DNA of 64,000 nt from Calothrix anomala FACHB-343 (GTDB taxonomy: Bacteria; Cyanobacteriota; Cyanobacteriia; Cyanobacteriales; Nostocaceae). Positions 8,910 to 64,000 of this stretch are shown here, piece after piece (the first letter of the stretch is position 1; the number at the start of each line of letters is the position of its first letter). The notes below the pieces were generated by a model. The model ran no database searches. It saw nothing but the letters and a program-made list of their open reading frames with translations, and was not told the origin of the DNA. The position numbers and the translations under genes are program-made. The stretch covers positions 124,001 to 188,000 of the forward strand of contig NZ_JACJQG010000005.1 of NCBI RefSeq assembly GCF_014696435.1, given 5' to 3'.

Positions 8910-8972
8910 TGTCATTCGTCTCCCTTGTCCTCCTTGTCCTCCCTGTCCCCCTTCCCTTATCCTCCTTCCCTT

Positions 8973-12400: not shown

Positions 12401-12420
12401 AGGTTAAACAAAATCCAAGA

Positions 12421-15400
12421 GTGTGTCAGATGCTCAGGCGTCTATTTCAGTGGCTTAAAAAGTTATTTCAGCAGCATCCTTTTAGCAGTCAGAAAGCTGG
12501 CTCTATAAATGCTGTCAGAGGTTACGGGTTGGCAAATAATGCACCACCCGAACTGACTAATGCGGATTTAGAACTGTTATTTACACAGTTGCTAGAAGGC
12601 GTGCAACAAGCAAGAGGTAGACAGTGGGCGCTGAAGTACCTGGAACGCATGGAACATCGCATTCCTGATGAGCGCTGGATAGATTGGCTATTGAGCTTTG
12701 GTGAAAGATTATTAAATTCACCTGCACCTAACCATCAGTTAGCAGCACGACTGATTCAGCTAGGTGAATTGGGAATTGGGAGAATCGGTGACCTTGCTTA
12801 TGACATTGGTCTGAGCCTCTTAAAGCGCAACTCAGCTACAGAGTATGAAGAGATTGAAGAGCCAGATCGACATCAGCATAGAGCAATGGACAGCAGTAGA
12901 CCAGAAAATAACCACTTAAACTCTCCAGGTCAAGAATTAATCCGGAACTTGGGCGATCGCTTGTGGGATTATGACGACGATGAGACGGAAATTCTCCCCA
13001 TCCCGGAAATGAATACCGTTGAGGAAACCTGGACAGGTAACTTTGGAGAAGTTGTCTGGGAATATCAAGCAGAAGATGTAGAAATCCCCAGACACCCAAC
13101 TCTGCTCGATCCAGGTGATGATGATGAAATCGCTAACTTATTCGATTTGTTCTCTGAGCCAGACGCACCAGAGAATGAACCTACCACGCCAATTACTAAC
13201 CTTAATCCCGCTAAACCAGAATCAAGACAGACTCCGCCTCCAGAAGCAGCTAAACAAAATCCCCCAAGACAAGAATCAAGACAGACTCCGCCTCCAGAAG
13301 TAGCCAAACAAAATCCCCCAAGACAAGAATCGAGACAGACACCGCCTCCAGAAGTAGTCAAACAAAATCCCCCAAGACAAGAATCAAGACAGACACCGCC
13401 TCCAGAAGTAGCCAAACAAAATCCGCCTACACCAGAACCCAGCCATACCCAAGCTAGGGACAACAACGGCTTAACGCCACCGCCAGAAACCCCCAGCCAA
13501 CCACCAGAAACCGGGACATGGGATACATCCTTAACCAAATTAGAACCCAGCGTAGCCCAAGCCTTTGATGAATTGTTAGTCAGATTGGATCAAAGTACTT
13601 CTTTAGTCCAAGAACTAGCTTCAGAACTAGCAATTCAACGGCAAAATTCCCAAATCATTCCCCAGCCCAAAATCGACCGCGCCCAAGCTTGGTTTTACCA
13701 AGGTCTTCAGCAAGCCAGAACGGGAGATTTAGCCGGGGCGATCGCTTCTTACAACGCCGCTATTGAAATTAAACCCGATGCTTACGAATATTGGTTTAAT
13801 CGGGCTTTGACATTGTTTCATTTAGAAAACTTTACCGAAGCGATCGCATCCTACGATCGCGCCATTGAACTCAAGCCTGATTTCCACAAAGCTTGGTACA
13901 ATCGCGGGGGAATTCTCGGTGAATTAGGAGACTTTGCAGCAGCTGTCACTTCCTTTGAGCAAGTCATCGCCCTGAAGCCAGATTTCCCCGAAGCTTGGTC
14001 TAGTCGGGGTTTAGCACTAATGAAATTAGGGCAATTATGGGAAGCGATCGCGAGTTACGACCAAGCTCTAGTATTACAACCACTAGATCCAGAAAACTGG
14101 TATTACCGGGGTATCGCCTTGGGTGTAAGCGAGCAATATCAAGAAGCGATCGCCTCTTATGATAAAGCCTTAGAAATTGAACCCAATTATTATGAAGTCT
14201 GGATTGACCGGGGCGTAGTCCTGTTTAATTTAGGACAATGGTCAGAAGCGATCGCTTCTTGGGATAAAGCACTGTCAATTCATGCTGATTTTTATCTGGC
14301 TTGGTATAACCGCGGCGTAGCTTTAGATAATTTAGGTCGTCGTGAAGAAGCCATCGATTCCTATCGCAAAGCGATCGCCATTAAACCAGACTTCCATGTA
14401 GCTTGGTATAACCAGGCCGTAGCCTTATTTTATTTAGAAAAATATACCGAAGCGATCGCTTCCTATGACAGCGCTTTACAAATTAAAGCTGACTATTGGG
14501 AAGCTTGGATTGGACGCGGAACAGCCGCCGGTCATATTAGTAATCCTGATGCATTATCTGGTTTATTTACTAACATCACCGCCAAAAATTCTGCTTTAAA
14601 ACAAAGTGGTTATGAAGGTAAATTAGCTAGCTACGAAGCCGGGTTGAAATATGTTCGTCCCGATACTCATCCCGAAGGTTGGGGAAGATTGCACTTAGCG
14701 ATGGCTAATAGTCACTACGATCAGGGTAAGAAACATTCACCCACCCGCAGTTATTGGCAAAAAGCTGTAGCTGAATATAATCAAGCCCTATTAACCCTCA
14801 CCAGCGAAGACTTTCCCCAATTACATTTAGAAGTTTTACAATACCTCACCAAAACTTTAGTTGGTTTAGGACAAACAGCACAAGCCCAAGAATTTCTGCA
14901 ATATGGTAGCGAGTTATTACAACAGTTAGTCAGCGATCCCATCCGTCCCGATGACAGTAAAAAACAGCTAGCTTTAAAATTCGCCGGCTTGAGACAATTA
15001 ATTGTTGATTTAGCTGTAGATTACGGCGACTTAATCGAAGCCTGGGAAATTGCCGAACAAGGCAAAAATGCTTGTTTAAATTGGCAGCTTGCAGGTTGGC
15101 AAAACCAGATTGATGTCCTTAGCTATCCTCAAGTTCAGCAACTACTCAATCCCCAAACAGCAATTATTTACTGGCATATTAGCCCAACCGCCTTACATAC
15201 ATTTGTCCTCAAAGATCAGGCTCCGTCACCTATCCTCATATTTACCCCCATGCAAGATGCAGGGGTATTTAGCTTAGGTAAAACCCCAATGCGGCTGCAT
15301 GAAGTTCCCCTTCCCGAAGCTGTCAGACGTTTCCTCGCCTTTGAATCTTGGTTAGAAGACTGGAATCAACAATATCAGGAATATTGTAGCCATACTGCCG

Positions 15401-18572: not shown

Positions 18573-20561
18573 TTAAAAGCCAATTTCAATAGTCAAGCTG
18601 CGAATTTTGCCTGTATCCATTTGGGCTTTATCTGCTACCTCTAAAGTCCAATTACCTTGAGGACTTTTACCTTTAAGAGGAGCTAAATCAGGAGTATTAA
18701 CTTCATCATAGGTTTTTTTGATGTTGTCTGTACCTCCGCCTTGGCGATTATGGAGAATTATCGGTAATACGCCTGATGCTGCGGGGGGAATAAGGCTGAC
18801 TACCAAATCGCCAATGTAGGTATGCTCAATATCTACTTCAACTTTGATAGATTTGATGGCATTGGTATTAGCGATCGCTAAACTGAGTGTAGATATCTGC
18901 AAATCATTAATCGGTACATCCTGTACGGCTTTGAAAATTCCCACAGGATCTGGTTGTGGCGGTAATGCTAATTCTACCGCTTTCAGGGCATTGACGCGAC
19001 CGTAGCCATATAGGCGGCTGTGTCCGTTAGCATCATAATTACCGCCAGCGCTATCAATGCGATCGCAAGAACGTTTAATGATATCTTTGACTTCATCCCA
19101 ACGTAAATCGGGGTTACGGGAAAGAATTAAAGCTGCAACACCAGCTACCCCAGGACAGGCGCTAGAAGTACCACCAAAACTATTAGTATAGTTACCAGCT
19201 AAATCCCCTTGTTCCGTCTTACCAGAATTGTACCCAACTGCACCAGTGCGATCGCTTGTCCAAATCCCTGGAGTTTGGGAACTATAGCCGTTATTACTGG
19301 GGAAAGCACACCATACAGCATTACCATAGTCGCTATAGGCGCTTCTGGTGCCATAATCGTTACAAGCAGCTACCGCAATGATTTTAGAATAGCTGGCATA
19401 GCCATCATTATCTACACTTTCGTTACCATTACCAGCTGCAAATAAAATTACGCAGCCTTTACCATTGCGCCCTTTCGTAAAAGCGTAATCCATTGCCAAT
19501 CTGGTAGAGTCGGGTAAGGGTACTTTTTGCTTGTGAACGGGATCGTTCGCATCCCACCAATCACCATCTGGTGGCCCCCAGCTACAAGAAATGATATCTG
19601 CACCATTTTGCGCCGCCCAGATAAATGCATCGGCTTCATCTTGGGAACCTAAGGCGGAAACGTAGCGAATTGGCATTAATTTGGCTTTGGGTGCAACACC
19701 TGAAGCACCAAAGTTACCATTACCACAGGCTACCCCAGCACAAGCTGTCCCATGATGATCTGAGTTACCTGGTTTAGGATTATTAGTTTTAAATGTTACA
19801 TCTCTTGGGGCAACAATCTTACCAGCTGTCCGGAATTCTTCATGGTCGAGATCTACACCATCATCAATAATGGCAATGGTTGTACCCGTACCGTCGCTTA
19901 ACTTCCAAGCGGCTTCGACGTTGGCATGGGCGTTAATTTTTTTACCATTAATTGTAGTTTCTTTTAAGTGCCATTGCTGAGGGAAAATTTGACGTTTACG
20001 AAATTCCCGCACTAGTTCTGGATGACACAAGTCTACTGCTTGTTCATTGAGTAGGCTTTCAGCTAAATCAAAGATGGCTAAACCAGTATTTGCGGGTGCG
20101 CTGACAAAATAAGCATTACGGGCGTAATCCAGTTGACGTTTAACAGTCAAATTGTAACGCCGGAAAATTTCTTCACAGGTGCTTGCTTCGACTTCATCAT
20201 CAAACTTAACGAATAAGTTTTCTGTATAAATTACTGGCTGATTGGAATTGGGATCGATTAATACGCGCCCAGCAAATTGAATTTGCGGTTCTTGATTGAG
20301 AATTGTTCTAGCTTGGTCGCGTAAAGCACTATCTTCTGTCGGTGCTTTTGCTTGCAGAACTTCCACACCAGCTTGGCGAAAGCGGGTTTTCACCTCAAAT
20401 TGCTTCAGAATACTCCGAGCTTCCGGTGATACAGATGCTACTTCAAAAGGGCGATCGCCTACAAGTAAACTGCGGTTTTCTGTCCGCACCACAATTTGAT
20501 TATCGCTGATCGCCAGTTCATACTGTTCACCGTTCTGGCCACCATAGCGAACCTGAACCAT
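18573..20561 (-). CDS. prcA: Calcium-dependent subtilisin-like protease PrcA with C-terminal P domain
   Basis: A 662-residue serine protease, the same length as I recall for PrcA of Anabaena. The S8 catalytic triad is visible: Asp233 (IAIIDDGVDLDHEE), His270 (DHHGTACAG) and Ser466 (FGGTSSACPGVAG). An N-terminal region (1-195) precedes the catalytic domain, and a proprotein-convertase P domain follows (about 541-662, ending LTIEIGF). There is no classical signal peptide. Members of this family cut after basic residues and need calcium. It is divergent from 20838, whose product resembles PrcA residues 113-190. The ATG start and downstream hairpin are clear. Confidence 0.9.
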   Translation of the reverse strand: MVQVRYGGQNGEQYELAISDNQIVVRTENRSLLVGDRPFEVASVSPEARSILKQFEVKTRFRQAGVEVLQAKAPTEDSALRDQARTILNQEPQIQFAGRVLIDPNSNQPVIYTENLFVKFDDEVEASTCEEIFRRYNLTVKRQLDYARNAYFVSAPANTGLAIFDLAESLLNEQAVDLCHPELVREFRKRQIFPQQWHLKETTINGKKINAHANVEAAWKLSDGTGTTIAIIDDGVDLDHEEFRTAGKIVAPRDVTFKTNNPKPGNSDHHGTACAGVACGNGNFGASGVAPKAKLMPIRYVSALGSQDEADAFIWAAQNGADIISCSWGPPDGDWWDANDPVHKQKVPLPDSTRLAMDYAFTKGRNGKGCVILFAAGNGNESVDNDGYASYSKIIAVAACNDYGTRSAYSDYGNAVWCAFPSNNGYSSQTPGIWTSDRTGAVGYNSGKTEQGDLAGNYTNSFGGTSSACPGVAGVAALILSRNPDLRWDEVKDIIKRSCDRIDSAGGNYDANGHSRLYGYGRVNALKAVELALPPQPDPVGIFKAVQDVPINDLQISTLSLAIANTNAIKSIKVEVDIEHTYIGDLVVSLIPPAASGVLPIILHNRQGGGTDNIKKTYDEVNTPDLAPLKGKSPQGNWTLEVADKAQMDTGKIRSLTIEIGF

Positions 20562-20837
20562 AATTTATTCTCCTGGTATCCATTGACATCTCAGCCTTTG
20601 GCTGGCTTGTGCATATCTGGAAAGTGTCACCCGCCAACCGCAGCTGAGGAATAGGTTAGTATAGCGAGTAAATACAAGTTTGCACTAGATTTTTCCAGAA
20701 AATATCTCACAGAAGTTTAAATATCTTAGTCAATTGCAACCTGGGGAAACTTTCTGCTGTCTAATGGCGACAAGTTGTAATAAGGACTTCAGTCCTGAAG
20801 ATAAAGCAACTATTGAAAATTATAGAATTTAAATAAG

Positions 20838-21374
20838 ATGCTCGAGTTTATTTTGTTAGCTCATTCTTTACCCCCAATTGCTGAAGTGAGATTTTCCGCA
20901 GACTACTTTAGTGCATATCCCCAACAAATCAGCATAGGCCAAGATAAGCCTGTGTTATATAGTCGTCAGCCTGGGTATTATGCTGTACACTCACAGCAAC
21001 CGAGAGCGATCGCATCTAATGCAGCTTTAATATTAAATGAGGGAAAAATTGCAGTTTTTGCAGGTGAACCCAAGCCAACAACCACAGATACAGTTAGCCC
21101 TGTGTATACATTACCAGGTGGTTCTCTCGCAGTTCCCACAGGTTTAGTCTTTATTCGCTTTGCAGAAAATGTTGATGTTGAATCACAGCAAGCAGCCATT
21201 AATCAAGCCGGTTATGAAGTCGCCCAAAAATTAGCTTATGCACCTAATGCAGCTTGGTTACGTGCTAAATCTGGGAAATTAAGCGATGCTTTCCCAGGAA
21301 TTCGTCAATTACAAGCAATACCCAATGTAGAAAATGTTGAACCGCAAATGTTAATGGAACGAAGACAGCGTTAG
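20838..21374 (+). CDS. Free-standing homologue of the PrcA N-terminal (prodomain-like) region
   Basis: A 178-residue protein with no catalytic domain. Residues 101-178 align without gaps to PrcA 113-190. My hand alignment finds 18 identities in 78, including the block L-x-Y-A-x-N-A (KLAYAPNAAW against QLDYARNAYF) and a matching basic end (MERRQR against REFRKR). The N-terminal 100 residues also contain PrcA-like pieces (YSRQPGYYAV; SNAALILNEGKIAVF). It is divergent from prcA with 276 bases between. A subtilase propeptide acting in trans, as folding helper or inhibitor, is the natural hypothesis. The alternative is a remnant of a second protease that lost its catalytic part. Confidence 0.75.
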   Translation: MLEFILLAHSLPPIAEVRFSADYFSAYPQQISIGQDKPVLYSRQPGYYAVHSQQPRAIASNAALILNEGKIAVFAGEPKPTTTDTVSPVYTLPGGSLAVPTGLVFIRFAENVDVESQQAAINQAGYEVAQKLAYAPNAAWLRAKSGKLSDAFPGIRQLQAIPNVENVEPQMLMERRQR

Positions 21375-21423
21375 GAAATTGAAGCACGCTTCGGATAAAC
21401 AGACGCGGAAATATATATTATCT

Positions 21424-21459
21424 ATGCCCAATGCCCCATGCCCAATGCCCAATGCCCAA
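21424..21459. repeat. (GCCCAAT)n heptamer tract
   Basis: Four to five GCCCAAT/GCCCCAT units immediately after the end of the response regulator gene. Confidence 0.85.
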
Positions 21460-22164
21460 CTAACTAGCCAACCCATGTTCGAGTGCATAGCGTACTAACT
21501 CAGTACGGCTATTTGTACCTGTTTTGTCGAACAATCTACTCACGTACTTTTCAACGTTGCGAATGCTAGTGTTTAAGCGACGGGCAATTTCTTTATTCAT
21601 CAAACCTGCTGCTACTAGTTCTAAAATACTTTGTTCCCGTGGCGTCAAATCAATGTTTATTGGTGCAGGTTTAATTGGCGCAGGTGATTTAGGATATACA
21701 CAAATCTTGTCTGCAATCTCCTCAAGTCTTTTGATTTGGCGGATCAGATCGTCAATATTATAATTACTGCCACTGTTGTTTTTACTGATACTAGCTCGCC
21801 GCAAGAGCAAATTTAGCACAATAGCTACCAACTCATCTGGGTTAAAGGGTTTTGGTAGATATGCATCACAACCGGCTTGGTATCCTTCGATGCGATCGCA
21901 ACTCATACCTTTAGCAGTCAACAAAACTACAGGTAATGACTCAAAACGCGGGTCTTCTCTTAATTGTTTGAGGAATTGGATACCGCTTACCTGAGGCATC
22001 ATAATATCAGAAATTAGTAAGTCAGGCATGTTATCTTGCAATAATTGCCATGCATCATCAGCATTACTAGCTACTTGAACCGTAAAATTACTTTCTTCTA
22101 AATAATCTTTGACTGCTTCCCGCACTCCTGGTTCGTCATCTACTAGTAACAATCTTGCTGACAT
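21460..22164 (-). CDS. NarL/FixJ-family response regulator, Rre1/Ycf29-like
   Basis: A 234-residue two-component regulator. The receiver domain (1-125) has the acidic pair (LLLVDDEPGVREAV), phospho-acceptor Asp near 54 (LLISDIMMP) and the conserved Lys (AYLPKPFNPDEL). The C-terminal LuxR-type helix-turn-helix (about 168-228) reads LTPREQSILELVAAGLMNKE and IRNVEKYVSRLFDKTGTNSR. The whole resembles the Rre1/Ycf29 group, also found in algal plastids, which in cyanobacteria works with stress-sensing kinases. The specific name is from memory and is less certain than the family. No kinase gene is adjacent. Confidence 0.85.
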   Translation of the reverse strand: MSARLLLVDDEPGVREAVKDYLEESNFTVQVASNADDAWQLLQDNMPDLLISDIMMPQVSGIQFLKQLREDPRFESLPVVLLTAKGMSCDRIEGYQAGCDAYLPKPFNPDELVAIVLNLLLRRASISKNNSGSNYNIDDLIRQIKRLEEIADKICVYPKSPAPIKPAPINIDLTPREQSILELVAAGLMNKEIARRLNTSIRNVEKYVSRLFDKTGTNSRTELVRYALEHGLAS

Positions 22165-22495
22165 ATTTTCTTCCTTGCCACTTATTGTTTATAGTTGTGT
22201 TGATATAGCTGTTGACAGTTGACTGTTGACAGTTGACAGACTTAAAAACCTTTTAGTATCAGGGTTTTATCTTAGGTTGATGTCCTAATCTATCTGGCTA
22301 CAGCTATATATCTACCCTGCTCGCCACCTTGGCAATCTTTGAGCAGCAGGATAGAGTAATTTTTCTTGTTGGTTTCAATTTAGCGGACTTGCTTTACTTT
22401 ACTTTATACGGTCATCGCTAAATAAAAGTACGGTTTCCTGGGCTTTACAAAGCTCAAGTTTTGTGTGTTATTTAATTGCACCGCTCTACTCAATA
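22165..22495. other. Intergenic region with a heptamer tract
   Basis: GTTGACA/GTTGACT units occupy 22211-22239. The rest is unique sequence presumably containing the response regulator promoter. No other feature was seen. Confidence 0.5.
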
Positions 22496-23119
22496 CTATT
22501 TATCGCGTTTTAATAATCCTGCGGCAAAGATTTGTTGTGCGGTTAGCTGCAAATTGGGAAAAACTGTGGAAACAAGTTGCTCATTGTTGTGAAACAACCG
22601 TTTTTGGTACTCATCTTGTATCAACGTACAAATTGTAATTGTGGGCTGTTTGGGTTTACCAATATATTCTCTGCCACCGATACCTAGATAATCTACAATC
22701 CAGTATTCAGGTACACCTAACAGCGCATAATCCTCTACTTTGCGAGCATAATCATTTTGCCAGTTTGTACTGACAACTTCAGCAATCAGCCGAATGGGTT
22801 TACCTGAAGTGATGACAGGTTCTTGCTGCCATAATGGTTCATTAATCAGTTGAGTTTGATCTAGCACAATTACATCAGGGCGAAAAGCGGTGTCTGTTCC
22901 CAGCAATTTAACTAAACAGCGATGGGGAATCAAGTAAGCTACATCCTGAGTGTCAATTTCTACATTCAGTTTTCGCCCAATAAATGCTGATACCTGTTCA
23001 TGAGGCCCTGTTGGTTCCATGTCGATTAATTCACCATCAATCAGTTCATAGCGATCGCTATCACCATATTGAGTAATAAATTCATCAACGGTGAGAATCT
23101 TTGCAGCTGATTTAACCAT
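22496..23119 (-). CDS. Uma2-family (DUF820) PD-(D/E)XK nuclease-fold protein
   Basis: A 207-residue member of a family hugely expanded in cyanobacteria. Core motifs are RYELIDGELIDMEPTGPHEQ, FRPDVIVLD (the active-site Asp), LIAEVVSTNWQNDYARK (the E-x-K-like part) and YALLGVPEYWIVD. The fold is that of restriction-type endonucleases, but the biological role is unknown. ATG 23119 is preferred to an in-frame TTG at 23134. No methylase or transposon partner is nearby. Confidence 0.87.
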   Translation of the reverse strand: MVKSAAKILTVDEFITQYGDSDRYELIDGELIDMEPTGPHEQVSAFIGRKLNVEIDTQDVAYLIPHRCLVKLLGTDTAFRPDVIVLDQTQLINEPLWQQEPVITSGKPIRLIAEVVSTNWQNDYARKVEDYALLGVPEYWIVDYLGIGGREYIGKPKQPTITICTLIQDEYQKRLFHNNEQLVSTVFPNLQLTAQQIFAAGLLKRDK

Positions 23120-23288
23120 GATGGTTTTTCCCAATTATTGATCTATTGAGCGATCGCTAATCCCTAATTCATTTTATCAGCCCCTACTACTTCCTGTGAG
23201 CTAAAGGTCTGTGTTGCCCATACCTGTGAATTGTCACTCGATATAACTTGGATTGCATGGCGATGCAATTGCATTATTGGGAGTGAAT

Positions 23289-23840
23289 TTAAACGCGCTG
23301 TAACTCCTCCAACCGCGCTAGTACTTCTTGACTGTGAATATTGGGATTCACCTTGACAAAAGTTTCCCGCACAATCCCCTCTGGATCGATGATAAAACTA
23401 TGGCGCATAGAGACATAGCCAATCCAAGAACCGTAAGCTTTACTCACTGCACCGTTAGTATCAGCCAATAATGGGAATTTTAGCCCTTCCGAATCACAAA
23501 ATTCAGCGTGAGAATCAACATCGTCTGCACTCACGCCAATAATTTGCGTATTCTTTTCTATATATTTGGGTAAGTCTTGCTGAAACCGCCGCGCTTCTAT
23601 GGTGCAACCAGAGGTAAAGTCTTTTGGGTAAAAATAAAGTACTACCCACTTACCATGCAATTGAGACAGAGAAATTGTCCCGTTACCTGTGTTCGTTGGT
23701 AAAGTAAACTCTGGTGCGGGTTGATTGATTTTTGGTAGTGTTCCACCTAACGCATCAGCCACCGGCGTAAAGTTGAGCCAACTCAGAAGCGCAACACAGC
23801 TGGCAAATAATATGCTGAAAAAATTACGACGAGATATCAT
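23289..23840 (-). CDS. Peroxiredoxin Q/BCP with N-terminal export signal
   Basis: A thiol peroxidase of 183 residues that reduces hydroperoxides using thioredoxin. The N-terminus MISRRNFFSILFASCVALLS looks like a twin-arginine-type or lipid-anchored export signal, ending near ADALG, so the enzyme is likely in the thylakoid lumen or periplasm. The core shows YFYPKDFTSGCTIEARRFQ with the peroxidatic Cys, and a second Cys (AEFCDSEG) that is a candidate resolving residue. The usual TPGC is TSGC here. It precedes nothing obvious in the same operon; sipA lies just upstream and is co-directional with a 31-base gap, so the two may be co-transcribed. Confidence 0.87.
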   Translation of the reverse strand: MISRRNFFSILFASCVALLSWLNFTPVADALGGTLPKINQPAPEFTLPTNTGNGTISLSQLHGKWVVLYFYPKDFTSGCTIEARRFQQDLPKYIEKNTQIIGVSADDVDSHAEFCDSEGLKFPLLADTNGAVSKAYGSWIGYVSMRHSFIIDPEGIVRETFVKVNPNIHSQEVLARLEELQRV

Positions 23841-23871
23841 GTACAGATCGGAATTATAACTTTACATAAGT

Positions 23872-24135
23872 TTATAATTCTTGGGTACTATTTGACTCTG
23901 ACTGCGACTCAGGCGGGTTATCTGTACTGTCAATATATTGGCTATCGAGTAGAAAAGCTCCCTTGGTAAAACGAATACCCCAATATCCACCAGGACGACG
24001 ATCAATTACTGTACCTTCTTCACCTAAGTGAATCACATCTGGTGGACGCAGCATAGGCATGGGTTCAGCTGTTTTCACGTAAGGTGGTAGCGCTACCACC
24101 CGGACTTTACTACCAATGATAAATTCCTTAGACAT
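23872..24135 (-). CDS. sipA: SipA, NblS/SphS-interacting regulatory protein (DUF3148)
   Basis: An 87-residue SH3-like protein. SipA binds cyanobacterial sensor kinases (NblS/Hik33; SphS in Synechocystis) and modulates them. The family sequence is plain: GSKVRVVALPPYVKTAEPMP, MLRPPDVIHLGEEGTVIDRR and PGGYWGIRFTKGAFLLDSQY. The C-terminus is a short acidic tail. It has a clear ATG start and is 31 bases upstream of the peroxiredoxin gene on the same strand. Confidence 0.8.
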   Translation of the reverse strand: MSKEFIIGSKVRVVALPPYVKTAEPMPMLRPPDVIHLGEEGTVIDRRPGGYWGIRFTKGAFLLDSQYIDSTDNPPESQSESNSTQEL

Positions 24136-24237
24136 GAGACATTGTGATAATACAAGGAGTGGTCAATCAGTCAGAGGTGGGAAGGCGAACGACAAACGCA
24201 TTCACAACCTGTACATCAAAAATCTTACTGCTTCTCC

Positions 24238-24472
24238 AGGGGTTAGGGGTTAGAGGCTAGGGATTAGGGATTGGGTATTGGGGGTTAAGGAGTGTTTGCA
24301 AACCCCTCAAACCTTGAAGCTAAAGCATGAGGCTATATTTAACAAAGCCCACTCATGTAAGCTCAAAAGCCTCATTTTTTGTAGTCTGTGCAGGCGCAAT
24401 GGCAGGGGGGTGCAGCACTCGGAGGTGACGGCGACTTTGAAAACACGCCCTAGCCCCTAGCTCCTAGCCCCT
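24238..24472. repeat. MITE-like element with GTGTTTTCAAA termini (copy A)
   Basis: The left end has GGGGTTAGGGGTT-type runs then GTGTTTGCAAAC (24292-24303); the right end has TTTGAAAACACGCCC then TAGCCCCTAGCTCC (24436-24472), its inverse complement in pattern. It is non-coding, about 235 bases. Copies B and C lie at 32866-33094 and 47571-47733. Confidence 0.6.
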
Positions 24473-24568
24473 GATTGTCTGTTACCTATTTCCAAAACAG
24501 ATGTATTTATTCTATAAGAGTGATTATAACTAGGTTATTATTTATCGCTGTCTTAAATTAAACAAATA

Positions 24569-26659
24569 ATGGTGAACTCTACCCTCGTGTCCACAATCTA
24601 TGTCAATTCTGTACAAGGGAATGATGCTAACGCTGGTTCGCGGTTGAGTCCCTTTAAAAGTCTCACCCGTGCTTTAAAAGCATCGACAAAATTTACAATT
24701 ATTCAGTTAAGTCCGGGAACTTATAGCACCGCTACTGGTGAGGCGTTTCCCCTAATTATTCCGGTGGGGGTAATTGTTGTGGGTAATGAAGCTAACAAAG
24801 GCGCAGGTATTGTAATTATCGGCAGTGGCACTTATCAAAGTCCGAGCTTTGGTACACAAAATATCACGCTGCTATTACAAGAAGATTCTAGTCTCCGGGG
24901 CGTAACGGTCACAAATACTACTTCTAAAGGGACTGGTGTTTGGATTGAATCAACTGCACCTAATGTCTCTAATAATACTTTTATTAACTGTGCGCGGGAA
25001 GGTATATTTACTACAGGTTCAGCGAAACCGGCGATTTTAGATAATGTATTTTTGCAAAATGCTGCTAGTGGATTAACAATGGCACGCAATAGCAAAGGCG
25101 AAGTATTAAGGAATATTTTCCAGAAAAATACCTTGGGGATCGCCATTAGTGACTTTGCTGCGCCTTTAATCGCCAATAATAAATTAACTGAAAATCAAAC
25201 CGCGATCGCTCTTTCGCGAGATGCTAAACCTGTATTGCGGCAAAATACAATTACTAACAATACCCAAGGCGGTTTATTGGTGAATGGTAACGCCATTCCC
25301 GATTTAGGTAGTACCCAAGACGCAGCTGGGAATATTTTCCGCGATAATCAAGGATTTGATTTACAGAATGTCACTGCATTACAGCTCGTTTCTGTTGGGA
25401 ATCAATTAAACCCCATCCAGGTAAAAGGAGCCGTAGATTTTCTTTCTGCGACAGTAGAAGTTCCCAGCCAGGTATCAGTTGGTACTAGTTTTTACGATCT
25501 CGGCGGACATTGGGCGGTGGCTTTTGTGGAAGCTTTAGTTGGTAAAGGCTTAATTAGTGGCTTTCCTGATAGTTCCTTTAAACCTAATGCGCCAATCACC
25601 CGCGCTCAGTATGCTGCTATAATTGCCAAAACTTTTCCACCACCAAATGGGAGTAAGGTCAGTAATTTTACAGATGTCAAATCAGATTATTGGGCAGCAT
25701 CAGCCATCTTAAGGGCTGCCAATATGGGCTTTGTCAGTGGATTTCCTGATGGCACTTTTCGTCCAGAACAAAACTTAACTAAAATTCAGGCAATTGTATC
25801 AATTGTGAATGGTTTGCAATGGAGTGGAGGGAACTCGAATGTGTTGAGTGTTTATCGCGATCGCGCCCAAATTCCCAGTTATGCTACTAATGCTGTGGCA
25901 GTGGCTACGCAAAAACTTTTGGTAGTCAATTATCCAACAACTGAACAACTAGAACCATTAAAAGACATTTCTCGTGCTGAAGTCGCAGCCTTAATTTATC
26001 AGGCATTAGTCGCCATTGGGCAAGAAAAAGCGATCGCTTCGCCTTATATTGTCAATCCTGAGATCAATATTCCTTCCTTTAGTGACCTGAAAGGCCATTG
26101 GGCGGAAGAATTTATTCGTGGATTGGTGAGTATGGGCTTAAGCACCGGTTTTGCTGATGGTAGCTACCAGCCAGATAAACCCATGACTCGCGCCCAATAT
26201 GCAACCTTAGTGGCGACGGCGTTTAACCCGACGGCGAAACGCCCAGCTATTGAATTTACCGATATAGCTAAGGATTTTTGGGCGGCTAAAGCGATTCAAA
26301 CTGCGGCGATGGGTGGATTTGTGGGCGGATTTAGCGATCGCACTTTCCGCCCCGATCAAAATGTGCAGCGCTTACAAGTCATTGTTTCTCTAGTTAACGG
26401 CTTAGGTTTACCCGCAGCCGATATTGATAACTTACTAGCTTATAGCGATCGCAATACAATTCCCGAATATGCCCGTCAAGCCGTAGCCACCGCCACCCAA
26501 CAGCAAATAGTAGTTAATTACCCAGATTCTCAGCAGCTTGTGCCAGTTCGTGAAGCGACACGTGCCGAAGTTGCTGCAATGGTTTATCAAGCTTTAGTGG
26601 CAATTCAGCGCACAAAAGCTATTAATTCCCCCTACATCGTCTCCCACACAAGCAATTGA
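24569..26659 (+). CDS. DUF1565/parallel beta-helix protein with six SLH motifs
   Basis: A 696-residue surface-type protein. Residues 8-50 match the DUF1565 start (IYVNSVQGNDANAGSRLSPF). A right-handed parallel beta-helix with Asn-rich turns follows (about 60-285). Residues 305-690 carry two sets of three S-layer homology motifs (for example YDLGGHWAVAFVEALVGKGL, then ISGFPDSSFKPNAPITRAQY; and FSDLKGHWAEEFIRG). SLH domains bind cell-wall polymers. Curiously no signal peptide is apparent: the protein begins MVNSTLVSTIYVNS, and no upstream in-frame start was found. It may be exported by another route or the true start may be lost. Confidence 0.85.
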   Translation: MVNSTLVSTIYVNSVQGNDANAGSRLSPFKSLTRALKASTKFTIIQLSPGTYSTATGEAFPLIIPVGVIVVGNEANKGAGIVIIGSGTYQSPSFGTQNITLLLQEDSSLRGVTVTNTTSKGTGVWIESTAPNVSNNTFINCAREGIFTTGSAKPAILDNVFLQNAASGLTMARNSKGEVLRNIFQKNTLGIAISDFAAPLIANNKLTENQTAIALSRDAKPVLRQNTITNNTQGGLLVNGNAIPDLGSTQDAAGNIFRDNQGFDLQNVTALQLVSVGNQLNPIQVKGAVDFLSATVEVPSQVSVGTSFYDLGGHWAVAFVEALVGKGLISGFPDSSFKPNAPITRAQYAAIIAKTFPPPNGSKVSNFTDVKSDYWAASAILRAANMGFVSGFPDGTFRPEQNLTKIQAIVSIVNGLQWSGGNSNVLSVYRDRAQIPSYATNAVAVATQKLLVVNYPTTEQLEPLKDISRAEVAALIYQALVAIGQEKAIASPYIVNPEINIPSFSDLKGHWAEEFIRGLVSMGLSTGFADGSYQPDKPMTRAQYATLVATAFNPTAKRPAIEFTDIAKDFWAAKAIQTAAMGGFVGGFSDRTFRPDQNVQRLQVIVSLVNGLGLPAADIDNLLAYSDRNTIPEYARQAVATATQQQIVVNYPDSQQLVPVREATRAEVAAMVYQALVAIQRTKAINSPYIVSHTSN

Positions 26660-57643: not shown

Positions 57644-58243
57644 ATGTTTAAGCAACGCTCTTATCAGAGTCACTTCTTCGCAAACTTAGCGAACACTCAA
57701 TTACCCAAAACCCTTAATTATTGGCGGTTGCGGCTAATTGAATCAATTCCATTTTTGCTAGCCTGTACAGTATTAATCAGTGTAATTAGTCTGAAAAGTC
57801 CTGTATTACTTTTTTGTCTATTAATGGGCAGTTTAATTGCCATAGTCATACAGCAAATAGGACAACAAATCAAATTACCAAAACGCCAGTTAATTTCACT
57901 GCAAATATTAGCAGTAGTCGCTCTATTGAGTATATTCTGGCTGGACTACTTCGCCGCCCCAGCGCAAGCGCAATTTTTCAAAAAAGCTGAAGACTTCTTT
58001 CAAAATACCCTAACTCAAGGCACCAGCACCGGCGGTAACACTCAACTAGCTGTGGGATTAGTCTTCAACGTCTTACGCGCATTGTACCTACTATATATAG
58101 CTGTCGCCTTAATTGGCGTAGTCAATGCCGTGCGCAAAGACGAAGATTGGCAAAACATCGCCAGAACCCCTTTATTAGTAGTAGTTGCAGTCACCATTGC
58201 AGATGTACTCACAGGCTTTGTCATTGGTAATCCCAATAAATAA
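57644..58243 (+). CDS. VirB2/TrbC-like prepilin with long hydrophobic leader
   Basis: A 199-residue membrane protein. The last 90 residues look like a mature VirB2-type pilin: they follow a signal-peptidase-like site (AAPAQAQ, cut near 109/110), carry two helices (about 134-160 and 173-194) joined by a short charged loop (RKDEDWQ) and end GFVIGNPNK. The first 109 residues are unusual, with three hydrophobic segments (about 34-50, 54-73, 85-102) instead of a short signal. VirB2 forms the pilus of type IV secretion systems. Position directly before VirB3- and VirB4-like genes supports the call. Confidence 0.65.
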   Translation: MFKQRSYQSHFFANLANTQLPKTLNYWRLRLIESIPFLLACTVLISVISLKSPVLLFCLLMGSLIAIVIQQIGQQIKLPKRQLISLQILAVVALLSIFWLDYFAAPAQAQFFKKAEDFFQNTLTQGTSTGGNTQLAVGLVFNVLRALYLLYIAVALIGVVNAVRKDEDWQNIARTPLLVVVAVTIADVLTGFVIGNPNK

Positions 58244-58319
58244 AGGCGCATATTTAAGTAAGTGGCTAATTGTAACCAAATATGTCACGCAACATAAATA
58301 GGCGGCAAATTCTCACTAA

Positions 58320-58411
58320 TGACAAATGACAAATGACAAATGACCAATGACAAATGACCAATGACAAATGACCAATGACCAATGACCAATGACCAATGAC
58401 CAATGACAAAT
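58320..58411. repeat. Longest heptamer tract, (TGACAAA/TGACCAA)13
   Basis: Thirteen consecutive 7-base units ending five bases before the VirB3-like start codon. CATAAATAGGCGGCAAATTC just before it resembles the CTTAAATAGGCTG dispersed family. Confidence 0.9.
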
Positions 58412-58415
58412 TATC

Positions 58416-58805
58416 ATGTCTCAAGAGCCAGACAAAGAGTTTCGTCCAGTCAATCAAATATTAGGTAGCCAACCATCATTAGGGCCGCTACCAGCAGATC
58501 AAATTCTACCTTGGACAGTCATTGCTTTAGCTGCCTACTTTATAGTTAACGGCATCTTTGGCGGACTATTCCAAGATGACTTTAAAAAATGGTTGTGGAC
58601 AATCCTCATCGCCGGTTGGGGAATGGCTACTTGGTGGATATTAACTGGTGGTAGAAGTTGGAGTTTTTTAAGTAAATTTATCGGCGTTCCCTCATGGACA
58701 AGAGGCTTTGCACGTTATCAAAGCTTGTTAGAAATAAATCATGAAGCAAAAAATCGGAAAACAAAGCATCGGTATCGCCGGCAACGCCAGGTTAACACCC
58801 TTTGA
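58416..58805 (+). CDS. VirB3-like small membrane protein
   Basis: A 129-residue protein with two adjacent helices (about 31-50, WTVIALAAYFIVNGIFGGLF; about 58-77, WTILIAGWGMATWWILTGG) and a basic C-terminus, the layout of VirB3/TrbD-type subunits. In type IV systems VirB3 works with VirB4, sometimes fused. Its 3' end overlaps the VirB4-like gene by 65 bases in another frame, so the two are translationally linked. The sequence alone is weakly diagnostic; the neighbours carry the call. Confidence 0.55.
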   Translation: MSQEPDKEFRPVNQILGSQPSLGPLPADQILPWTVIALAAYFIVNGIFGGLFQDDFKKWLWTILIAGWGMATWWILTGGRSWSFLSKFIGVPSWTRGFARYQSLLEINHEAKNRKTKHRYRRQRQVNTL

Positions 58806-61485
58806 AGACGCTTTACATTTAGCGACAATGTTGCGCGTCTCGTTTAATAGACGCGACGTTGGCGGTTATATATTAACTAAAGGCAACCAAAAAGATAGAT
58901 TTTGCTTTGTATTTGGGTTTGAATGCCGAGGAATTCACAGTACCCTGAGAAGCGAACAAATTGATACTATTTTTGACAACATCGAAGCTGGGTTAAAGGA
59001 TATCCCTAGCGGCGAAAAAATGACGTTGCATTTGGGTTCGTTTATTGACGATAAAGAACGCCAAAAAGAATTAGCCGAGTTAGCCAGAAATACCAGTTCG
59101 CGAGATATTAAATACTTGTTAATGGCAGAACGCGCCAGAACCAAGGAACTGACAAATTCTGGCATTCGTAAACCGAAATTTTTGCGGATTTACGTGACAT
59201 ATACCGTCGAACCCAATGCCAGCAATGCCGATGATTTAATTGAAAAATTCTTGGCGAAAGGTGAAGCTTGGTGGTTGAAATTTAAAGGTGATATTGCGGA
59301 AGTTGAAAACCAGCGTCTAGAGACTGTAATTACTAACGCCTATAAACAAGGTTTTAGTCGTTGGGAACAGTTGTTGTCTAACAAAATGGGCTTAGATATC
59401 AAGCCATTAACAGCTAAACAACTATGGGGAGAAATTTGGCGGAGATTTAACGATACACCGCCGATAGAAATTCCTCAATTGCTCACCTTAGATGAAACCG
59501 GACTCCGCGAACAAGTTTATTCGGAATTGCCGAGTACAAAACTTTTAGTAGAAAATATTCACAGCACCACCTTACTGATGGAATCTGGCGTGCCTTGTGC
59601 AGACAGGCGGTGGGTAAATGTGAATAATAGTTATATTGGCGCTTTGACATTTTTAGAAAAACCCGGTGGATGGGCAAATAAATCTTCTCAACTGCGGTAT
59701 TTATGGGAACTACTATCAAGAGAAACAGTAGTTGATACGGAAATATTTTGTCAGTTGACAGCCGCCAATCCAGCTTTAGTCAAAACTACCTTACAACGAG
59801 TTTTGAAGCAGTCAAATATGACAGCGCTGATGGCTCAAGAAAAAAGTCGGACAATTGACGTTAATGCCCAATTAAAGTTAAAAAAATCTGTCGCTGCACA
59901 AGAACAACTTTATGAAGGAGCCATACCTATATATACAGGTATAGCTATTTTTGTCCATCGTCCAACAGTGGAACAATTGGATGAAGCTACAAGATATATT
60001 GAAAACTGTTTCCAACGTCCAGCCAAGGTAATTAGAGAAACCGAATATGCTTGGAAGATTTGGTTACAATCTTTGCCCATAGTTTGGGAAGGTTTACTAG
60101 TTAAACCCTTTAACAGAAGACAATTATATTTAACTAGTGAAGTTCCCGGATTAATGCCTGTAGTCTTAACAAGACAAGGTGATAGTCAAGGGTTTGAATT
60201 AATTGCTTCTGAAGGTGGGACACCCGTACATTTAGATTTATTTACTCAGCATAAAAATTTAGCTTTGTTTGCGACGACTAGAGCCGGGAAATCGGTGTTA
60301 GTGTCGGGGATTTTAACTCAAGCTTTAGCTCACGATATTCCTGTTGTGGCGCTAGATTTCCCCAAACCCGATGGCACATCTACCTTCACTGACTATACAG
60401 AATTCATGGAGAGAAATGGAGCCTATTTTGATATTTCTAAACAATCAAATAACTTATTTGAGCAGCCAGATTTGCGTGCTTTAAGTGCAGAAGAACAAAA
60501 AGATAGGATGCTCGATTATACAGCCTTCTTAGAATCAGCGCTGATGACAATGGTATTGGGTTCATCGATAGAAAACCCTCTATTGGCACAGACAGTGCGT
60601 TCCATCATCAACTTAGCATTGTCAGCCTTTTTTAGCGATCGCACTATCAAACAGCGTTATCAAGAAGCAATGACTGGCGGTTTCGGTTCCCTAGCTTGGC
60701 AAAAAACCCCTACCTTGAAAGATTTCTTATATTTCTGTTCCCCAGAACATCTGCAACTTGATTCTCTCAGCAGCAGAGTAGAAGATGCATTGAGTCAAAT
60801 TCAACTACGCCTGCGGTTTTGGCTTTCTAGCCGCGTCGGACAAGCGATTTCTTCTCCTTCCAGCTTCCGCACAGACGCCAAACTATTAGTATTTGCACTC
60901 CGCAACCTCTCCGATAGTGAAGACGCAGCTGTACTTTCCTTGAGTGCTTACTCTGCTGCTTTACGTCGCGCACTCAGCAGTCCCGCCTCGATATTCTTTA
61001 TCGATGAAGCGCCAATTTTATTTGAATTTGACCAAATTGCCAATTTAGTCGGGAGAATTTGCGCTAACGGTGCTAAAGCCGGGATTAGAGTCATTTTATC
61101 GGCTCAAGACCCCGATACCATCGCCAAATCCACCGCCTCCGCCAAGATTTTACAAAACCTCACCACCAGATTAATCGGTCGAATTCAGCCGGTAGCTGTG
61201 GATAGTTTCGTCAATATCTTGAAATATCCCAAAGAAATTATCGCCCGCAACGCAACCGAAAGCTTTTTCCCCCGCAAAGAGGGAATTTATAGCCAATGGT
61301 TGCTAGATGACAACGGAATTTATACATTCTGTCGCTACTATCCCGGTTACGAACAACTAGCCGTAGTTGCAAACAACCCCAACGAACAATCTGCGCGTCA
61401 ACAATCAATGCAACGCCACCGCGATAAATATGAAGCAATTTCCGTCTTTGCGCGTCAATTAGTCGCTTCTTTGCGCGGAAGTTAG
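58741..61485 (+). CDS. VirB4-family secretion/conjugation ATPase
   Basis: A 914-residue ATPase. The N-terminal half (1-450) is the less conserved VirB4 interaction region. The C-terminal motor domain has Walker A ATTRAGKSVLVSG (about 511-520), a following ALDFPKPDG, and Walker B SIFFIDEAPILFEF (about 750), then SAQDPDTIAKS and an arginine-rich end. VirB4 proteins energise pilus assembly and substrate transfer. ATG 58741 lies inside the preceding gene; no strong ribosome site. There is no coupling ATPase (VirD4) or relaxase in the window. Confidence 0.8.
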   Translation: MKQKIGKQSIGIAGNARLTPFEDALHLATMLRVSFNRRDVGGYILTKGNQKDRFCFVFGFECRGIHSTLRSEQIDTIFDNIEAGLKDIPSGEKMTLHLGSFIDDKERQKELAELARNTSSRDIKYLLMAERARTKELTNSGIRKPKFLRIYVTYTVEPNASNADDLIEKFLAKGEAWWLKFKGDIAEVENQRLETVITNAYKQGFSRWEQLLSNKMGLDIKPLTAKQLWGEIWRRFNDTPPIEIPQLLTLDETGLREQVYSELPSTKLLVENIHSTTLLMESGVPCADRRWVNVNNSYIGALTFLEKPGGWANKSSQLRYLWELLSRETVVDTEIFCQLTAANPALVKTTLQRVLKQSNMTALMAQEKSRTIDVNAQLKLKKSVAAQEQLYEGAIPIYTGIAIFVHRPTVEQLDEATRYIENCFQRPAKVIRETEYAWKIWLQSLPIVWEGLLVKPFNRRQLYLTSEVPGLMPVVLTRQGDSQGFELIASEGGTPVHLDLFTQHKNLALFATTRAGKSVLVSGILTQALAHDIPVVALDFPKPDGTSTFTDYTEFMERNGAYFDISKQSNNLFEQPDLRALSAEEQKDRMLDYTAFLESALMTMVLGSSIENPLLAQTVRSIINLALSAFFSDRTIKQRYQEAMTGGFGSLAWQKTPTLKDFLYFCSPEHLQLDSLSSRVEDALSQIQLRLRFWLSSRVGQAISSPSSFRTDAKLLVFALRNLSDSEDAAVLSLSAYSAALRRALSSPASIFFIDEAPILFEFDQIANLVGRICANGAKAGIRVILSAQDPDTIAKSTASAKILQNLTTRLIGRIQPVAVDSFVNILKYPKEIIARNATESFFPRKEGIYSQWLLDDNGIYTFCRYYPGYEQLAVVANNPNEQSARQQSMQRHRDKYEAISVFARQLVASLRGS

Positions 61486-61549
61486 AAGGGCAGGGGGCAG
61501 GGGGCAGGGGTGCAGAGGAGGTATAGGGGCTAACTCAATAAATACTCAA

Positions 61550-61612
61550 TGACAAATGACAAATGACCAATGACCAATGACACTTGTACAGACGCGATTC
61601 ATCGCGTCTCTG
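61550..61612. repeat. (TGACAAA)n tract plus GTACAGACGCGATTCATCGC palindrome
   Basis: Heptamers 61550-61582 and the palindrome 61583-61612, just before the VirB5-like gene. A GGGGCAGGGG repeat precedes them. Confidence 0.85.
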
Positions 61613-61634
61613 ACAAATAACCAATGATTAATTT

Positions 61635-62423
61635 ATGAAAAAAACCGTTATTTTCACGCTTAGTTTAGGATTGCTAGCCACACTACCAGCAATGGCACAA
61701 TTAGGCAGTGTTTTAGCCGATTTTCAATCCTATTCCAGCGAATTACAAAATTATCTCAAAAATAATTTGAGTTCCACATTAAAGCCTGTTGAAATGCAGT
61801 CCCAAAGTGCGCTGAATGAATCTACAGGACAGATGAATTTACCTAATCCAATTACAGCAGGAGATAGATTAGAGAATGTGATGGTTGTCAATTCTATCTC
61901 TGATAAATTTGATAACAATCCGGCGTTGAAGTCGAAAACAGCTACTAATGAAATTAATCGCCTGATTACCCGCAGTTCTGTAGCTAGCGTTTTGGGTAAA
62001 ACTGGTCAAATCAGAACAAAAATTAAGTTACAAGATACTGAAAAAACCCTAGAAAATATTTCCCAAATTGCCCAAGAAGCGGATCAAAGCCATCAAAATT
62101 TTCTGGGTAGCTTTCAATCACAACTCGGTCAATTAACTACTGCGGGTATTCCTGGTTTAGGCGCGTTATTGAATAGCAATGAATCAGATTTACAACTTAA
62201 AAATATTCAAATTCAAAGTCAACAATCCAGAATTGTTGGAGAAACACTAGCGCAGACGATGCAGGTAAATCATTTCTTGCAATATTCTAATTTAAATTTA
62301 GCCAATATTTCCCAACAAATCGAAGACAATAACCGGGCGCGGCGTGTTGATTCCTCCGCCGAAGCTGCTAGGCTTTTACGCACAACTTCGCAAATGGATT
62401 TATTTGGGAGGAAAGAAAAGTAA
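61635..62423 (+). CDS. Exported VirB5/TrbJ-like protein
   Basis: A 262-residue protein with a clear signal peptide (KKTVIFTLSLGLLATLPAMA, cut before QLGS). The mature part is helical, Gln/Asn/Ser-rich, with two long coiled segments (about 120-150 and 185-245). This matches the general layout of VirB5/TrbJ proteins, minor pilus-tip components in the periplasm. The sequence similarity is weak and the call rests on position between VirB4- and VirB6-like genes. ATG start at 61635. Confidence 0.5.
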   Translation: MKKTVIFTLSLGLLATLPAMAQLGSVLADFQSYSSELQNYLKNNLSSTLKPVEMQSQSALNESTGQMNLPNPITAGDRLENVMVVNSISDKFDNNPALKSKTATNEINRLITRSSVASVLGKTGQIRTKIKLQDTEKTLENISQIAQEADQSHQNFLGSFQSQLGQLTTAGIPGLGALLNSNESDLQLKNIQIQSQQSRIVGETLAQTMQVNHFLQYSNLNLANISQQIEDNNRARRVDSSAEAARLLRTTSQMDLFGRKEK

Positions 62424-62425
62424 GA

Positions 62426-62479
62426 GTCAATGGTCAATAGTCAATGGTCAATAGTCAATGGTCAATAGTCAATGGTCAA
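62426..62479. repeat. (GTCAATGGTCAATA)4 14-base tandem repeat
   Basis: Four 14-base units (two alternating heptamers) right after the VirB5-like gene. Confidence 0.85.
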
Positions 62480-62540
62480 CAGTTAACTTTCCTTCTGCCG
62501 TCAACCATAATCTGCCTTCTGCCTTAATTTAAATTTAAAA

Positions 62541-63587
62541 ATGCAGTATATTCTACAAATTCCAGCGAATACAGGTATTAATGATGTTCTCGGTAATGGG
62601 GTAACAACTGCCCAAAGTATTGCTGAAAGCTGGGAGAATCAATGGCTAGATTTATTACAAAAAAATCCCAGTGACAATATATATGGTTCACTGACGAATT
62701 TAGGCATATTTTTTGCGGTAGGAACTTTATTAGTTTTCCTCATCCAATGGCTGAAAGATGTACTTGAGGGTGAATATTCTCGTCCGATTTCATCGATGAT
62801 TTGGCCGTTTGTGGTGGTGATTTTATTAAATAATACTGGGAATGGAAGTATTCTTTCGAGTTTGACTTTAGGGGTACGCAACTACATCAATTCGGTGAAT
62901 CAGCAGGTAGTGACTACAGCAGATACCGATAAAGTTTATCAGCAAGCGCTGAATATGAGTGTGGCGGAAGAGGTGGCTGGTTCTTTGTTGCGTCCTTGTC
63001 AGTCTTTAACTGGGGAACAACAATCGCAATGTTTTACTAAAGCTACAGAGAAAATCAATAATCTTTGGCAAGAATATAGAAATTCCTACGGTAATAAAAC
63101 TTGGATTGAAAGATTAGAAAATAAGGTAAATCAGATTAGCTACGGTACAGGCGATGTTTCGGAAACTGCTTTTAATGCTTTGTTAGGTTCGACAGTGCAA
63201 ACTAGTATTAAAAACTTTTTGGTTTCCTTACAATATGCTTTTCAAAATTTAATTGAAGCGACAATGCTACTAATAGCAGCTTTAGGGCCGCTAGCGGTTG
63301 GTAGTTCATTATTACCTGTCGCAGGTAAACCGATTTTCGCTTGGCTGACTGGGTTTATTTCTTTGGGAATTGCCAAGATTTCTTTTAATATTATTGCGGT
63401 GTTAACTGCATCTGTAATTGTTAATGGCCCGGCGCAAGATCCAAATGCTGATCCTGATTTAATGTGGTTCATAATTTTCTTAGGAATTTTAGCGCCAATT
63501 TTATCATTATTGACGGCGGCGGCGGGAGGATTTGCAGTTTTTAATGGGATTGCGAATACAGCTAACTGGGTGAAAGCGAGGGTCTAG
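62541..63587 (+). CDS. VirB6/TrbL-like polytopic membrane protein
   Basis: A 348-residue inner-membrane protein. Two helices lie near the N-terminus (about 53-72, LGIFFAVGTLLVFLIQWL; about 82-96), a soluble loop follows (about 105-225), then at least three helices (about 232-260, 268-295, 308-335) rich in Gly/Ala. VirB6/TrbL proteins form the channel base of type IV systems and share this layout. Its stop (TAG) is immediately followed by the next start (ATG), so the two genes are tightly coupled. Confidence 0.6.
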   Translation: MQYILQIPANTGINDVLGNGVTTAQSIAESWENQWLDLLQKNPSDNIYGSLTNLGIFFAVGTLLVFLIQWLKDVLEGEYSRPISSMIWPFVVVILLNNTGNGSILSSLTLGVRNYINSVNQQVVTTADTDKVYQQALNMSVAEEVAGSLLRPCQSLTGEQQSQCFTKATEKINNLWQEYRNSYGNKTWIERLENKVNQISYGTGDVSETAFNALLGSTVQTSIKNFLVSLQYAFQNLIEATMLLIAALGPLAVGSSLLPVAGKPIFAWLTGFISLGIAKISFNIIAVLTASVIVNGPAQDPNADPDLMWFIIFLGILAPILSLLTAAAGGFAVFNGIANTANWVKARV

Positions 63588-64000
63588 ATGGTAAGGTTAT
63601 TAGAGAAGAAAAAACAGACAGTTAATATTTTAACAATTTTTGCGATCGCAACTTTTGGATTGCAGGTATTATTGCTGCTATTTTTAATGATGCAAGGCTT
63701 AAATATTCGCCAGCTTAGTTTGCGAAAACAGCCGAATTTTGTGCAGATGGTTGATGGTAAACCTGTTGATAATACTGATAATTTAGCACGAGACCCGGAA
63801 GGAATTCGCCAATTTGTCAGTAAAACTATGACTTCAATTTTTAACTGGTCAGGAACTTTACCGCCACAAACTATTGAAGAAGTAGGTAACCCTAAACCAG
63901 ATTTAGGAATATTAATTAAAACTCCATCGGGTGGGAGTCAAAAAGTTACTACTAGTAGTTGGATTGGTAGCTTTGCTTTATCTGAAGATTTCCGCAAAGG
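63588..64000 (+). CDS. Partial VirB8/TraE-like protein (runs off the window)
   Basis: The frame opens at ATG 63588, directly after the preceding stop, and stays open to the right edge (137 codons). It encodes a short basic cytoplasmic end (MVRLLEKKKQTVN), one membrane helix (about 15-36, ILTIFAIATFGLQVLLLLFL) and a soluble, probably periplasmic, domain (DPEGIRQFVSKTMTSIFNWS). Type IV VirB8 and TraE proteins have exactly this bitopic design. Without the C-terminus the family cannot be fixed. Confidence 0.5.
   Translation, partial: MVRLLEKKKQTVNILTIFAIATFGLQVLLLLFLMMQGLNIRQLSLRKQPNFVQMVDGKPVDNTDNLARDPEGIRQFVSKTMTSIFNWSGTLPPQTIEEVGNPKPDLGILIKTPSGGSQKVTTSSWIGSFALSEDFRK

Follow-up and report, generated by a model that had tools for sequence, protein, structure and literature searches.

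A type IV secretion operon without a coupling protein in Nostocaceae, probably put to a use other than conjugation

What does a set of type IV secretion system (T4SS) genes do in a genome when the genes that mobilize DNA are not beside it? The question arose from a 64,000-nucleotide stretch of Calothrix anomala FACHB-343 (hereafter the window: bases 124001-188000 of contig 90, in a genome of 9.24 Mb). The original prediction, made from the letters alone, had recognized at the right-hand end of the window six co-directional genes in the order virB2, virB3, virB4, virB5, virB6 and virB8, had seen no mobilization genes, and had left a choice between a chromosomal protein or DNA transporter and the edge of an integrative conjugative element (ICE). 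We find that the six open reading frames (ORFs) are present as described, that virB4 overlaps the ORF before it, and that the cluster is an operon of nine genes extending beyond the window edge (ORF reading of the contig).

Of the two options, the chromosomal transporter is the better one. On balance we favour a domesticated, non-conjugative T4SS of the mating-pair-formation class MPF_C, fixed in the chromosome of Nostocaceae, devoid of a coupling protein and inherited largely vertically, which would form a pilus or export proteins from the periplasm. The cell has probably taken over the cluster for a job other than conjugation.

The operon and its plasmid relatives

The operon reads virB2-like, virB3-like, virB4, virB5-like, virB6-like, two virB8-like paralogues, virB10 and a short virB9-like gene (Table 1). 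The last three genes lie to the right of the window, where the original prediction had proposed looking for virB9, virB10, virB11, virD4 and relaxase genes. No virD4, virB11 or relaxase ORF was seen on the contig stretch around the operon (by ORF inspection, with no VirB11 profile run), nor any small VirB7-like lipobox ORF on the + strand of the operon.

By homology and gene order, compared with cyanobacterial plasmid loci, the cluster is assigned to MPF_C, the class of the conjugative module described for pCC7120alpha (alr7199-alr7213; PMC8600333, in excerpt). VirB4 matches the NCBIfam profiles TIGR02746 (5e-13) and TIGR00929 (1e-10), both below their curated cut-offs, and VirB10 matches Pfam PF03743 at 4e-13, above the cut-off. 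The other seven proteins have no credible Pfam or NCBIfam match of their own. The predicted gene order holds; the names of genes other than virB4 and virB10, including the predicted B2, B3, B5, B6 and B8 labels, come mainly from collinearity with MPF_C conjugative plasmids. A plasmid relative of VirB6 (L157) matches TrbL (PF04610) at 4.5e-5, slightly below the cut-off. Searches of PDB sequences with VirB4, VirB10 and the profiles A1-A4 returned no credible match.

The hydropathy of the operon proteins fits a VirB layout. Both VirB8s and VirB10 each have one N-terminal transmembrane-like segment, VirB6 has four such segments, and the VirB5-like and VirB9-like proteins have one at the N terminus. 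In the VirB2-like protein a hydrophobic leader is followed by an AQAQ site (read by eye) and then by a conserved two-helix hairpin, with two transmembrane-like segments after the site. Moreover, the Walker A and Walker B motifs are retained in 80 of 80 VirB4 orthologues. The two VirB8-like proteins are 31% identical to each other. For the VirB9-like protein, DUF4138 gave weak matches in 3 of 33 members (best E 0.3), which we did not take as evidence.

How does the operon differ from its plasmid relatives? There are 13 comparators: 12 cyanobacterial plasmid loci and a second copy in the window's own genome (contig 73). The homologous genes follow one another as in the operon, from virB2-like through virB9-like, in 11 of the 12 plasmid loci and in the contig-73 copy, the exception being the rearranged Gloeothece locus (L116); single genes lack a match in L156 and L157. 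A virB2-like homologue occupies the corresponding position in 11 of the 12 plasmid loci, has no match in L157, and adjoins the virB3-like gene in L116. Unlike these modules, the operon has neither a type IV coupling protein (T4CP) nor a relaxase beside it, and its VirB8 is doubled. T4CP matches were found in 10 of the 12 plasmid loci, or 11 of the 13 comparators, within the stretches read; L119, one of the two lacking a match, is truncated where its record stops, and in L116 none was seen. Relaxases are annotated in several plasmid loci, and VirB11 in none of the plasmid stretches read. Only one VirB8 is present in the 11 collinear plasmid loci and the contig-73 copy; the doubling is found again in L116 and in a divergent member, L189. 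Nor is the operon plasmid-borne above 76% identity: VirB4 homologues occur on 114 of 72,556 plasmid records, a set that may omit records very close to the window's genome, with a best identity of 75.6% and none above 76% (40-76% among the best 60 of the 114). In a VirB4 tree (FastTree), the 81 orthologues of the locus set described below make up one side of a branch with 17 others on the opposite side (support 94, not starred).

The contig-73 copy (L192, 1-20000) is a plasmid-type MPF_C module with a T4CP and a gene we call X, and a MOBV relaxase is encoded on the same contig. Plasmid gene X lies beside the T4CP gene (L118 20995-22824); by eye it has a lysozyme-like (VirB1-like) end, and it has no Pfam match. 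Gloeothece verrucosa PCC 7822 (L116, an 880-kb record; 645-14745 and 19633-24867) carries a sister cluster with two VirB8s, a rearranged order and no T4CP. A DMFA2_C/DUF4082 protein is encoded upstream of it; some 5 kb downstream lies the gene for an RTX-repeat protein of 1744 aa.

Distribution and inheritance

Conservation across cyanobacteria had been proposed as a check on the original prediction. VirB4 orthologues at 79% identity or more occur in at least 150 of 218 Nostocaceae genomes (150 matches listed, each from a different genome), and some VirB4 match exists in 193 of the 218. Twelve of 20 listed family genomes without a match fall in one genus group (g5), and five further genomes are matchless. 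In a sample of the phylum, 23 of 386 genomes reach 74% VirB4 identity, 22 of them members of the window's family.

We examined 81 loci, namely the window genome's own (L005) and the best 80 of 146 relatives (79-98% VirB4 identity), many of them ended by contig ends. Most of these best 80 carry Nostocales titles, two are named Plectonema and some are unclassified; the nearest among them, Tolypothrix sp. FACHB-123 and Calothrix brevissima NIES-22, are 98% identical in VirB4. Matches were found in 81 loci for virB3 and virB4, 80 for virB2, 79 for virB5, 77 for virB6, 76 for virB8b, 75 for virB8a, 73 for virB10 and 71 for the virB9-like gene. By eye, the operon order is kept in all but L038 and L101. 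In L038, the beginning of virB6 and the tail of the second virB8 have adjoining matches (13627-13809); in L027, a cluster outside the family, virB10 is inverted and directly follows virB4. The surroundings are another matter. The housekeeping gene rsmH, which the original prediction had named as the left flank, is present in only 8 of the 81 loci and is not informative; tftA/dnaG is present in 3, and no other flanking gene family (after clustering) in more than 24. The operon persists while its neighbours change.

Does the operon follow its hosts? Trees of VirB4 and DnaG were compared in 30 genomes. Their distances correlate at 0.71, a value reached in none of 999 permutations, and the trees share 12 of 27 splits, compared with a mean of 0.3 after shuffling; VirB4 distances are about 0.54 of DnaG distances. 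VirB4 partly tracks the host tree, with an agreement far beyond chance though incomplete. Moreover, the median ratio of nonsynonymous to synonymous substitution (dN/dS) is low in all nine genes (0.08-0.40; 0.084 for VirB4), the highest values being 0.395 for the VirB5-like gene and 0.362 for VirB10. Rows with internal stops were dropped, leaving 53 to 80 sequences per gene. Those stops, found in some operon ORFs, lie near gene ends or come with misplaced starts and were judged coordinate artefacts, except in L038.

The missing coupling protein and possible functions

The predicted absence of mobilization genes extends to the relatives: neither a T4CP nor plasmid gene X has a match in any of the 81 loci (sequence as available). 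We also searched 30 genomes, picked from a larger set, that have one VirB4 match each, scoring at most four candidates per genome. The T4CP profile PF02534 was found in 5 of the 30 and in 4 of 4 positive controls, and went undetected in 25, of which 7 are single-contig. A second, cyanobacterial T4CP query found nothing in these 25 (2 of 2 controls positive). Twenty-three of them have a VirB4 orthologue at 79% or more and one (G174) has one at 74%; the identity for G443 is not among the matches listed. MOBV relaxases (PF01076) occur in 3 of the 4 controls and in 3 of the 30 genomes, of which two belong to the 25; the other 23 T4CP-negative genomes lack a MOBV relaxase as well, MOBV being the one relaxase family searched. 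The window genome itself carries other T4CP and MOBV relaxase genes together with its second MPF_C module.

The cluster shows neither the coupling protein nor the relaxase expected of a conjugative T4SS or ICE. We infer the following course. In ancestors of the Nostocaceae, a cyanobacterial plasmid-type MPF_C mating apparatus would have become a fixed part of the chromosome, losing its coupling protein, gene X and relaxase and gaining a second VirB8, and would have been inherited largely vertically since. VirB4 would power an inner-membrane platform of VirB3, VirB6 and the two VirB8s, and VirB10 and the VirB9-like protein would cross the periplasm. The machine may build a VirB2/VirB5 pilus, export proteins picked up from the periplasm, or do both. 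With VirB4, VirB6, VirB8, VirB10 and the VirB2-like and VirB5-like proteins all retained, and no coupling protein to load DNA or protein from the cytoplasm, pilus assembly or export of periplasmic proteins seems the likeliest working mode, by analogy with other T4SSs that have no T4CP.

Several points weigh against a domesticated and largely vertical system. For six of the nine genes the label depends on position, and for VirB6 on a single weak match, that of a relative. The predicted fold of the VirB9-like protein was set aside at a mean pLDDT of 42, and two divergent members, L116 and L189, have no match to its gene. Between VirB4 and DnaG, 15 of 27 tree splits differ, and dN/dS comes close to 1 or exceeds it in some single pairs (1.2 in the VirB5-like gene, 0.98 in the second VirB8). 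In one locus, that of Nostoc sp. T09 (L038), the greater part of virB6 and the VirB8s is gone. A rearranged cluster outside the family (G133 contig 237, L027) holds a 79% VirB4 orthologue, so that either vertical descent is not the whole story or the system arose earlier. The relaxase search covered MOBV only, and MOBV was missed or absent in one of the four controls. The T4CPs and MOBV relaxases in 5 and 3 of the 30 single-VirB4 genomes make help in trans possible in some. Finally, the upstream repeats described below are not clear in the window genome, whose score with the SphR matrix falls below threshold.

Could the machine instead deliver effectors? Cytoplasmic proteins would then be recruited through an unrecognized, non-homologous coupling factor and aimed at grazers, plant hosts or competitors. 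Such roles were proposed for relaxase-less T4SSs of environmental bacteria, cyanobacteria included (Guglielmini 2011, PMC3158045, in excerpt), but we consider this unlikely for the operon: no widely conserved neighbour offers itself as coupling factor or cargo, and only one outside member, that of Gloeothece, lies near an RTX-repeat protein, a single case.

We hold a DNA-uptake machine to be a slightly poorer candidate still. Helicobacter pylori ComB, a T4SS without coupling protein or VirB11, imports DNA, and the operon would resemble it in its missing parts (VirD4 by search, VirB11 as judged from ORFs only) and in the VirB4, VirB10 and VirB8-like proteins it keeps. Should the upstream boxes be Pho boxes, a role of DNA as phosphorus source is conceivable. 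However, the absence of VirB11 says little because the plasmid stretches read also have no annotated VirB11, no flanking family is conserved beyond 24 of the 81 loci, and cyanobacterial competence uses type IV pili.

An ICE remnant or edge, moving DNA with help in trans from resident plasmids, could draw on the T4CP, MOBV relaxase and second MPF_C module of the window genome and on the T4CPs of 5 of the 30 single-VirB4 genomes, but it is improbable. No T4CP is detectable in 25 of the 30, and persistence and selection are seen in such lineages. The operon's occurrence in 150 or more of the 218 family genomes, its better-than-chance match to DnaG and its low median dN/dS in nine genes are not those of a decaying or mobile element. 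It also keeps its genes among changing neighbours, has a boundary on either side, follows the host tree in part and has no plasmid VirB4 above 76% identity.

A domesticated MPF_C machine would have partial precedents. A 2011 study described cyanobacterial T4SSs without a relaxase in a general way and suggested that they transport protein (PMC3158045, in excerpt). Some protein-secretion T4SSs (pT4SSs) have no T4CP and export from the periplasm, and a 2016 survey places pT4SSs only in MPF_I and MPF_T (PMC4793230, in excerpt). Like a pT4SS, our cluster has a VirB4 and no relaxase (by ORF inspection, and a profile for MOBV only); unlike the pT4SSs of that survey, it is MPF_C-like.

Other T4SSs, namely Helicobacter ComB, Bartonella Trw and Bordetella Ptl, have no coupling protein and serve uptake, adhesion or secretion, not conjugation. 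The operon shares this lack with them. Unlike them it belongs to another MPF class, and its duplicated part is VirB8, whereas in Trw the duplicated parts are pilus subunits. As far as we searched, in openly licensed literature only, we found no earlier description of a widespread, largely vertical MPF_C-like system without a coupling protein.

If the domesticated reading is true, a dedicated machine derived from a T4SS is maintained by most members of a bacterial family that is large and of ecological importance, and the genomes without a detected coupling protein make a T4SS role without one directly testable in non-pathogenic laboratory cyanobacteria. Much more tentatively, it might be a family-wide, chromosomally fixed organelle of heterocyst-forming cyanobacteria, a third MPF class recruited away from conjugation, with a two-VirB8 platform, no coupling protein and a PhoB/OmpR-family switch (perhaps responding to phosphate starvation), serving nutrient scavenging, DNA uptake or cell-cell contact in the filament.

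Upstream repeats and flanking features

How might the operon be switched on? The region before virB2 was compared in 70 non-redundant relatives and 409 control upstream regions. Three TTAA words at an exact 11-bp spacing occur in 38 of the 70 relatives, compared with 3 of the 409 controls, and in 49 relatives when up to one mismatch is allowed; spacings of 9, 10, 12 and 13 bp give triples in at most 5 of the 70. None of the 13 plasmid-type upstream regions has the triple at up to one mismatch (starts in L116 and L192 chosen by hand). Most chains lie about 160-190 bp before the start codon, as in L097 (median -177 in 43 chains).

PhoB/SphR boxes are 8-bp repeats with a 3-bp linker, and hence 11-bp direct repeats (PMC1906773, in excerpt). 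With an SphR matrix built from 25 of the 30 sites in that source, 37 of the 70 relatives score above the 95% point of the controls when the period is 11; at period 10 the number is 26, and other periods give 6 to 10. In about half of the relatives, then, the repeats resemble a candidate box of the PhoB/OmpR family. We stop short of calling it a Pho box because its second C, unlike that of a plain Pho box, is rare in the relatives (8%), because only 3 of 14 PstS upstream regions, our positive control, pass the threshold, because the window genome fails, and because the 70 relatives are neither independent nor neutral in composition (7.7 upstream TTAA words compared with 3.7 in controls, the excess being largest at 11-bp and 22-bp offsets). 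Control by the hormogonium factor SigJ was rejected: its J-Box (GGGaAtacT; PMC6495340, in excerpt), with up to one mismatch allowed, turns up in none of 77 upstream regions, where 2.65 would be expected.

Table 1. Features of the operon and its flanks, in window coordinates (L005 coordinate + 57000); positions above 64000 lie outside the window.
Feature	Position	Strand	Basis
rsmH	left flank of operon		name from the sequence reading of the original prediction
VirB2-like, 199 aa	57644..58243	+	ORF; position in plasmid loci; conserved in alignment A4
VirB3-like, 129 aa, overlapping virB4 start	58416..58805	+	ORF; position in plasmid loci
VirB4 ATPase, 914 aa	58741..61485	+	NCBIfam TIGR02746, TIGR00929; Walker motifs
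VirB5-like, 262 aa, signal-peptide-like N terminus	61635..62423	+	label from position only
VirB6/TrbL-like polytopic membrane protein, 348 aa	62541..63587	+	collinearity; hydropathy; PF04610 match of plasmid relative
First VirB8-like, 274 aa	63588..64000 in window, ends 64412	+	ORF; collinearity
Second VirB8-like	64482-65174	+	ORF; collinearity
VirB10	65183-66775	+	PF03743
Short VirB9-like	start 66792 or more likely 66954, end 67523	+	collinearity
tftA, convergent with operon	67672-69024 (L005 10672-12024)		NF050040 at 6e-252
dnaG, convergent with operon	69276-71201		profile search

The contig ends at window coordinate 73,382. To the right of the operon lies tftA, a hormogonium tapered-terminus gene. 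It adjoins the operon in only 3 of the 81 loci, so that its adjacency is probably a recent arrangement, and we rejected it as a functional partner. Short tandem repeats lie in gaps of the operon (window 58266-58457 and L005 9792-9850), where translated ORFs show repeating GHW motifs.

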